NCBI GenBank assembly: GCA_017882905.1
Contig: JADGOO010000061.1
Location: forward strand, 1 to 40,790
Direction of reading: 5' to 3'
DNA from: Acidimicrobiia bacterium
Lineage (GTDB): Bacteria > Actinomycetota > Acidimicrobiia > IMCC26256 > PALSA-610
DNA length: 40,790 bases
The notes below the pieces were generated by a model. It was not told the DNA's origin. It saw only the letters and a program-made list of their open reading frames with translations, and searched no databases. How positions within the stretch are numbered: the first letter of the stretch is position 1; every line of letters begins with the position of its first letter. Shown here one piece after another: positions 36,859 through 38,818 of this stretch. Made by a program: the position numbers and the translations under genes.

Positions 36859-37452
36859 CTAGCTCGACGTGGGGGTGGGGCCACCGAGCCCGTGCTCTTC
36901 GCGGCTGACGAGCCGGCGGATGTTGGCCGCGTGCCGCGCGATGATCAGCGCGGCGAGCACCGCGATCACCACCACTTCCCAGACGTCGTAGCGCAGGATC
37001 CCGACCGTCACCGGGAACGCGACGCAGATCAGCAGCGAGGCGATCGACGCTTTGCCGAGCACCTTGGCGATCAGCGCCCACACCACGGCGAGGCCCAACA
37101 CCACGAGCGGGAACAGCACCACGAGCATCCCGCCGGCGGCGGCCACGCCCTTGCCACCCTTGCGACCGAGCGGGAACGTGTGGCCGACGACGGCGGCCGC
37201 GCCGAGCAGGTAGGCGGCCCCGCGCCCGTCGATGGCGAGACCGAGACCCGACGCCGCGGCGCCCTTGGCGAAGTCGACGGCGAGGACCAGGGCTCCCATG
37301 CGCCAGCCGAGCAGCCGGGCCACGTTCGACGCGCCGGGGTTGCCCGACCCGGAGGCGGTGACGTCGAGGCCACGGGCCCGCGCGACGAGCACCGCGGTCG
37401 GGAACATCCCGAGGAGGTAGCCGACCGGCAACAGCACGAGCGCGAGCACCAT
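36859..37452 (-). CDS. plsY: Glycerol-3-phosphate acyltransferase PlsY
   Basis: Membrane enzyme that acylates glycerol-3-phosphate using acyl-phosphate, the first step of phospholipid synthesis. The 197-residue protein has the three PlsY signatures: SGSGNPGASNVARLLG, HTFPLGRKGGKGVA, and a third loop near ALIIARHAANIRRL. About five to six hydrophobic segments are visible. ATG 37452 (MVLALVLLPVGYLLGMFPTAVLVARARG) gives the normal start of the first helix; the longer frame is Arg-rich and unsupported. It is divergent from fmdB, with 173 bases between the starts, including the CIRCE element. Confidence 0.94.
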   Translation of the reverse strand: MVLALVLLPVGYLLGMFPTAVLVARARGLDVTASGSGNPGASNVARLLGWRMGALVLAVDFAKGAAASGLGLAIDGRGAAYLLGAAAVVGHTFPLGRKGGKGVAAAGGMLVVLFPLVVLGLAVVWALIAKVLGKASIASLLICVAFPVTVGILRYDVWEVVVIAVLAALIIARHAANIRRLVSREEHGLGGPTPTSS

Positions 37453-37551
37453 GGCGCCGCATCTTCGCAGCCGCGGGCGCACGGAAGCGGCCTCAGGGCG
37501 CATCGACTCGGATCGTGGCGCCGACTTGATCAAGCAGCCGGCCGATTGCGA

Positions 37552-37583
37552 TACGATTAGCACTCGCGCGCCGCGAGTGCCAG
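37552..37583 (+). promoter_or_regulatory. CIRCE (HrcA operator) overlapping a -10 box, upstream of fmdB-mtnP
   Basis: TTAGCACTC-N9-GAGTGCCAG at 37557-37583 matches the CIRCE consensus TTAGCACTC-N9-GAGTGCTAA in 15 of 18 arm bases with the exact 9-bp spacer; the inner dyad is a perfect 9-bp stem. TACGAT (37552-37557) is the likely -10 box and overlaps it by one base, the usual place for HrcA repression. No chaperone gene is in the window. Confidence 0.8.
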
Positions 37584-37625: not shown

Positions 37626-37982
37626 ATGCCGACCTACGAATACCGGTGCAACAAGTGCGGCGAGCACTTCGACTTGTTCCAGACCTTCGCCGAGGAGCCC
37701 CTGAAGAAGCACCCCGGCAAGTGCGGCGGCAAGGTCGTCAAGGTCATGTCGCCGGCCGGCATCGTGTTCTCGGGCAGCGGCTTCTACAAGACCGACAACC
37801 GTCGCAGCAGTGGGGCGCGGTCGTCGAGCTCGGAATCCAAGAGCTCCGCGTCCGAGTCGAAGAGCTCCGAATCCAAGAGCTCCGGGTCCGAGTCGAAGAG
37901 CGGATCGGGCGAGACCAAGAGCTCCGAATCCAAGGGCTCCGAGTCGAAGAGCGGATCGGGCGAGACCAAGAAGAGCGCGTGA
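37626..37982 (+). CDS. FmdB-family zinc-ribbon protein with Ser/Lys/Glu-rich tail
   Basis: A 118-residue protein. The first 55 residues are the FmdB regulatory-protein zinc ribbon (MPTYEYRCNKCGEHFDLFQTF... CGGKVVKVMSPAGIVFSGSGFYKTD) with a CxxC pair and a later CGG; the second metal-ligand pair is incomplete. Residues 58-118 are an almost pure Ser/Glu/Lys/Gly tail that contains a 10-residue duplication. AGGGAG lies eight bases before ATG 37626. It is regulated in front by a CIRCE element and overlaps mtnP by four bases (GTGA). Function of the family is not firmly known. Confidence 0.9.
   Translation: MPTYEYRCNKCGEHFDLFQTFAEEPLKKHPGKCGGKVVKVMSPAGIVFSGSGFYKTDNRRSSGARSSSSESKSSASESKSSESKSSGSESKSGSGETKSSESKGSESKSGSGETKKSA
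37890..37970 (+). repeat. Duplicated 30-bp unit in the FmdB tail
   Basis: Identical 30-bp units at 37890-37919 and 37941-37970 (each starts GAGTCGAAGAGCGGATCGGG), in frame, separated by 21 bp of related sequence. Confidence 0.88.
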
Positions 37983-38818
37983 GCGACGCCGGTGCGCCCG
38001 GCGCCGACATCGGCATCTTCGGCGGATCGGGCTTCTACGAGCTGTTCGACGAAGCGGCCGGTGGCACGACCACTCTGGCGATCGACACGCCGTACGGCCC
38101 GCCCGCCGGCCCGGTCACCCTCGGACACATCGGCGGCGTGCGCGTCGCGTTTCTTCCTCGTCACGGCCCCGACCATCAGCACGTGCCGCACCAAGTTCCG
38201 GCGCGCGCCAACGTGTGGGCAATGGCGCGCCTCGGAGTGCAGCGCATCATCGGCCCGTGCGCAGCCGGCTCACTCGCCAACCACGTGCACCCGGGCGACT
38301 TCGTCGTGCTCGACCAGCTCGTCGACCGCACCTGGGGCCGACCCGACACGTTCTACGACGAGGGCGCCGCGCACCATGTGAGCTTCGCGGATCCGTACTG
38401 CCCGCAGCTGCGCAGCGCCGCGGTCGATGCCGCAGCACGCTGCGGCATCACGGCGCACGAGCGCGGCACGGTCGTGGTGATCAACGGTCCGCGCTTCGCG
38501 ACACGCGCGGAGTCGCGCTCGTACCGCGACCAAGGCTGGGAAGTGATCAACATGACGCAGTATCCCGAGGCGTACCTCGCCCGCGAGCTCGGAATCTGTT
38601 ACTGCGGCGTGGCCCTGATCACCGATTACGACACCGGCGTGGAACACGACCCGGGCATGGAGCCCGTGACCCAAGAACAGGTGTTCGCGTTCTTCGAGGA
38701 CAACCTGCACCGCGTGCGCGAGCTGCTGGCTGTGCTCGTGCCATCGCTGCGCTCCACGCGCAGCTGCGACTGCGCCGCGGCGCGCGGACCATTGGTCAAT
38801 CCGCCCCTTCCCGCTTAG
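37979..38818 (+). CDS. mtnP: S-methyl-5'-thioadenosine phosphorylase
   Basis: Phosphorolytic enzyme that splits methylthioadenosine, the by-product of polyamine synthesis and similar SAM reactions, into adenine and methylthioribose-1-phosphate. The 279-residue protein has IGIFGGSGFYEL, FLPRHGPDHQHVPHQVPARAN, GPCAAGSLANHVHPGDFVVLDQ, and VINMTQYPEAYLARELG, the purine/ribose-binding segment, followed by LITDYDTG. GTG 37979 overlaps the fmdB stop, so the two are translated together and share CIRCE control. The last 25 residues (SCDCAAARGPLVNPP...) look variable. Confidence 0.92.
   Translation: MSDAGAPGADIGIFGGSGFYELFDEAAGGTTTLAIDTPYGPPAGPVTLGHIGGVRVAFLPRHGPDHQHVPHQVPARANVWAMARLGVQRIIGPCAAGSLANHVHPGDFVVLDQLVDRTWGRPDTFYDEGAAHHVSFADPYCPQLRSAAVDAAARCGITAHERGTVVVINGPRFATRAESRSYRDQGWEVINMTQYPEAYLARELGICYCGVALITDYDTGVEHDPGMEPVTQEQVFAFFEDNLHRVRELLAVLVPSLRSTRSCDCAAARGPLVNPPLPA

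Follow-up and report, generated by a model that had tools for sequence, protein, structure and literature searches.

The fmdB-mtnP locus

The window, by which we mean the whole 40,790-nucleotide stretch of contig JADGOO010000061.1 that was analysed, carries a two-gene unit, fmdB-mtnP, preceded by an inverted repeat and facing a divergent plsY gene that is probably outside the regulated unit. The features discussed below are:

36859..37452, reverse strand: plsY, glycerol-3-phosphate acyltransferase, divergent neighbour (PF02660, 130.8 bits; translation; conserved divergent order)
37552..37557, forward strand: predicted -10 box TACGAT (TAnnnT recurs at the equal position in 32 distinct sites of the order)
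37557..37583, forward strand: predicted HrcA site (CIRCE operator), TTAGCACTC-N9-GAGTGCCAG (16 of 18 arm bases; arm conservation across the order)
37626..37982, forward strand: fmdB, a ruc homologue of 118 aa with a zinc-ribbon N-terminus and a Ser-rich disordered tail (TIGR02605, PF09723, alignment, AlphaFold)
37979..38818, forward strand: mtnP, S-methyl-5'-thioadenosine phosphorylase, with a GTG start at 37979 (NF005876, TIGR01694)

The dyad ends 42 bases before the fmdB start, and the fmdB stop and mtnP start overlap by 4 bases. The mtnP product scores 338.5 bits against 306 for NF005876 and 278.7 against 274.85 for TIGR01694.

A CIRCE operator on a conserved promoter box

The full dyad reads TTAGCACTC-GCGCGCCGC-GAGTGCCAG. 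Compared with the CIRCE consensus arms, TTAGCACTC and GAGTGCTAA, both of its mismatches fall in the right arm. The first-pass annotation had described a CIRCE dyad at this place, overlapping the TACGAT box; the element is real, its spacer is exactly 9 bp and the last T of the box, at 37557, is indeed the first arm base, but the count of matching arm bases is 16 of 18 rather than 15. When the whole window was scanned, this dyad was the sole CIRCE match with three or fewer mismatches, and 100 dinucleotide-preserving shuffles of the window, used as a control for chance, gave none.

A consensus promoter scan found no sigma-70 -35/-10 pair. The TAnnnT box and the conserved G that precedes it keep a fixed position ahead of the first arm throughout the order: counted from the dyad, the G stands at -7, a T at -5 and an A at -4. 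In the window the G in question is at 37550; as the extended -10 position it is conserved, recurring with TAnnnT in the 32 distinct sites. Judged from sequence, the conserved box fits an extended -10 promoter, the start site of which would be covered by a bound repressor. The arms of the 32 distinct ruc sites are near-invariant, at 1-2 bits for each position, while the spacer is free to vary (0.07-0.69 bits), as expected for an operator to which a protein binds.

HrcA and its sites in the genome

The genome encodes one HrcA (PF01628, 154.9 bits against a cut-off of 22.2, E = 5.8e-45). A whole-genome pattern search, after which the downstream genes were read, located clear CIRCE sites before groEL (two in tandem, contig C73), groES (C214), hrcA-dnaJ (C164) and fmdB, together with one singleton (C244). 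In this genome dnaK is not preceded by any of the strong CIRCE sites that were read, and matches to the HAIR pattern of HspR were fewer in the genome than in the control.

The singleton, at C244:22553 (genome G000; L020:2554-2580), is a dyad matching 15 of 18 bases before a gene for a 171-aa protein of no known family, which is divergent from an enoyl-CoA hydratase-like gene. The dyad is missing before homologues of the 171-aa gene in five family members. Another dyad in the same genome, at C95:50539 (L021:2540-2564), with 2-3 mismatches, was rejected as an HrcA site given the TetR-family gene just downstream, and on its sequence context is most likely that gene's own operator.

Conservation and loss of the operator

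The sample of the order comprised 58 genomes, with FmdB found in 49 and HrcA in 56. Of the 49 order-mates with fmdB, 36 have a dyad of at least 14 of 18 bases in the 200 bases preceding the gene, and its overlap with the predicted promoter and start is conserved in these relatives; the top dyad score among 1286 control windows from the same loci was 13. Five order-mates, each from a different family, gave 20 fetched sites in total: every genome had one before groES, one before groEL, one before hrcA and one before ruc. The attribution of the dyad to HrcA/CIRCE control in the first-pass annotation is thus well supported by the presence of hrcA, by the same operator before groEL (two sites), groES and hrcA, and by the recurrence of the element before fmdB in related genomes. 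Neither of the two outcomes that the annotation had named as refuting it, a genome lacking hrcA or loss of the dyad from close relatives, was obtained.

Beyond the order, an exact combined CIRCE-fmdB pattern was found in 31 of 395 genomes of the class, and the reversed-pattern control was found in none. In named genomes the combined pattern occurs in at least 116 stretches, mostly from Actinomycetota, and the Actinomycetota among the listed matches include Acidimicrobiia, Dietzia, Nocardioides, Nesterenkonia, Mycobacterium, Mycobacteroides and others. Single or few listed records are labelled Riflebacteria, Ignavibacteriales (Ignavibacteria), Bacteroidetes, Armatimonadota, Acidobacteriota and Erysipelotrichia, though taxon labels on metagenome bins can err, and the protein in the Acidobacteriota-labelled record looks actinobacterial. 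Control of ruc by HrcA, known from published work on M. tuberculosis, thus appears to be widespread; it recurs across classes of Actinomycetota and is probably old. This breadth supports regarding proteins with the common annotation "FmdB family" as protein-folding factors that are co-regulated with chaperonins.

The dyad is missing before fmdB in 13 of the 49 order-mates, which belong to families f6, f12, f11 and part of f10 (loci L028, L034, L036, L038, L043, L046-L049, L210, L213, L217 and L220). Twelve of the 13 have hrcA and other CIRCE sites, indicating that HrcA control of ruc can be lost; the remaining genome, G024, has neither.

Among the 32 distinct ruc sites, half have a left arm with GCAGTC instead of GCACTC (for example L027, L031, L041, L042, L044 and L050), and a symmetric GCAGTC/GACTGC form stands at some other sites (hrcA of G008, G018 and G019). 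The variant arm was considered as a mark specific to ruc and rejected, since it is present before hrcA too. These sequence variants suggest that within the order the specificity of HrcA has been altered or relaxed.

FmdB is a relative of Ruc

The N-terminal 52 residues of the window protein match the FmdB family model TIGR02605 above its cut-off (60.4 bits, cut-off 31.3), and PF09723 also matches. In the AlphaFold model, the zinc ribbon shows confident beta strands, and pLDDT is 86-89 for residues 1-40 and falls to 50-63 beyond; the hydrophilic C-terminal tail, rich in Ser, Gly, Lys and Glu, is without secondary structure and is predicted to be disordered. Two mycobacterial proteins, one from Mycobacteroides chelonae (L156) and the other from a Mycobacterium locus (L176), are 37-38% identical to the window protein, and in both CIRCE precedes fmdB. 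From these mycobacterial relatives, and from the published description, the window FmdB is a relative of M. tuberculosis Rv0991c (Ruc), a redox-regulated chaperone that HrcA represses and that is induced at 45 C (PMC7448276). The first-pass annotation had offered FmdB as an uncharacterised stress factor, a description that does not fit a relative of a published chaperone. Its assignment of fmdB to the heat-shock regulon is supported by the HrcA/CIRCE evidence but is not new, Rv0991c being already known from experiment as an HrcA target (PMC7448276). A literature search on FmdB and heat shock found nothing relevant.

In M. tuberculosis the HrcA operons are groEL2, groES-groEL1, rv0991c-rv0990c and hrcA-dnaJ2 (PMC8557902). 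The sites in the window's genome match this regulon operon for operon, with mtnP in place of rv0990c. The likeness of the two ruc loci extends to HrcA control (predicted here), the zinc ribbon with its disordered tail, and a regulon shared with groES, groEL and hrcA-dnaJ; they differ in that SigH is used as well in M. tuberculosis, whereas a vegetative-type -10 box is predicted here. For comparison, HrcA/CIRCE regulons of Bacillus and other bacteria (groESL, hrcA-dnaK) share the operator consensus, spacer and repressor family, but the window's genome adds ruc as a target and has dnaJ as the partner of hrcA.

Regulation of the fmdB-mtnP unit

We consider it highly probable that the dyad serves HrcA as the operator of the ruc (fmdB) operon, so that a Ruc-type chaperone is induced with the chaperonins and mtnP is carried as a passenger. 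It is very likely that the locus extends the known HrcA regulon to an uncultured lineage of Acidimicrobiia, HrcA control of the gene being already known in M. tuberculosis. The sequences themselves establish the dyad, the promoter geometry, the presence of hrcA, the make-up of the regulon, conservation and the protein family; for the lineage of the window we infer HrcA binding, heat induction, chaperone function and a redox switch. At normal temperature HrcA on CIRCE would cover the -10 box and the predicted start of a vegetative-type promoter, and fmdB-mtnP would be blocked. HrcA activity is lost once unfolded protein occupies GroEL. Its inactivation would induce fmdB-mtnP together with groES, groEL and hrcA-dnaJ. 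By analogy with M. tuberculosis Ruc, the FmdB zinc ribbon may release zinc on oxidation, and the disordered tail may hold unfolded proteins for DnaK. The mtnP gene would be co-transcribed and is likely to be translationally coupled; it is likely to be co-induced with fmdB, though it is probably a passenger.

The operator might instead exist for mtnP, with HrcA tying protein stress to methylthioadenosine and purine salvage and fmdB incidental. The four-base overlap of the two genes is in keeping with this, as is the presence of the dyad in all 20 of the order loci in which mtnP directly follows fmdB; the same gene order is found in at least 23 named loci, all of them Actinomycetota among the matches listed. 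However, of 20 order loci in which mtnP does not adjoin fmdB, 10 keep the dyad (nine more loci end too early to tell), CIRCE-fmdB stands without mtnP adjoining in most of the listed named matches from Actinomycetes, mycobacteria included, and the published HrcA target is Ruc. Because the dyad persists where adjacent mtnP is missing, it follows ruc and not mtnP; we regard this explanation as improbable, and the link from protein stress to purine and methionine salvage proposed in the first-pass annotation is correspondingly weak. A literature search on MTAP and HrcA found nothing relevant.

That the operator serves plsY, alone or jointly with fmdB, is a shade less probable again. The plsY start lies only about 100 bp away on the opposite strand, and the divergent order is kept in nearly all order-mates, but the dyad is fixed in position on the -10 box of the fmdB side and persists at loci with no plsY homologue found close by, within the order (L044) and within the class (L052-L065 and L068). 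Least credible of all is a dyad that arose by chance or that binds another repressor. The TetR gene at C95 with its similar-looking dyad indicates that CIRCE-like dyads of other regulators exist; against this, the shuffled windows gave no matches, the arms are conserved and the spacer free over many families, and the same motif precedes groES, groEL and hrcA.

A histidine in place of a zinc-binding cysteine

The zinc ligands of M. tuberculosis Ruc, from the mutants named, are C8, C11, C29 and C32, and changing either cysteine pair to serine abolishes zinc binding and leaves a protein that is active without oxidation (PMC7448276). The corresponding zinc-ribbon residues of the window protein are C8, C11, H29 and C33, only three of them cysteines, so that ligand 29 is His rather than Cys and the four-cysteine CxxC-N17-CxxC pattern of Ruc is not found. 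The FmdB model takes its name from two CxxC motifs, the second of which is H-x3-C here. Position 29 was scored in 51 rows (the 49 loci of the order plus two outgroup loci): His occupies it in 42 and Cys in nine, both outgroups among them. The state of this position changes at least three times on a weakly resolved PlsY tree, and all seven CCHC proteins among the listed named matches appear to belong to the order of the window.

With H29 in place of a zinc-binding cysteine, the window protein may not share the redox mechanism of Ruc from M. tuberculosis. A tentative possibility, to which we give well under even chances, is that the Ruc of this order, its third zinc ligand exchanged from Cys29 to His, can form no second internal disulfide, and that its switch is a single C8-C11 disulfide plus an odd cysteine, or is driven by heat or zinc and not by oxidation. 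If so, the His29 proteins would be a differently gated branch of Ruc that retains ancestral HrcA control, and a natural variant for testing the number of cysteines required by the Ruc switch. The second zinc-ligand motif also departs from CxxC in two proteins of family f4 (L219 and L221), in which it is rearranged with an insertion, C-SQIG-C-VAPGKPG.
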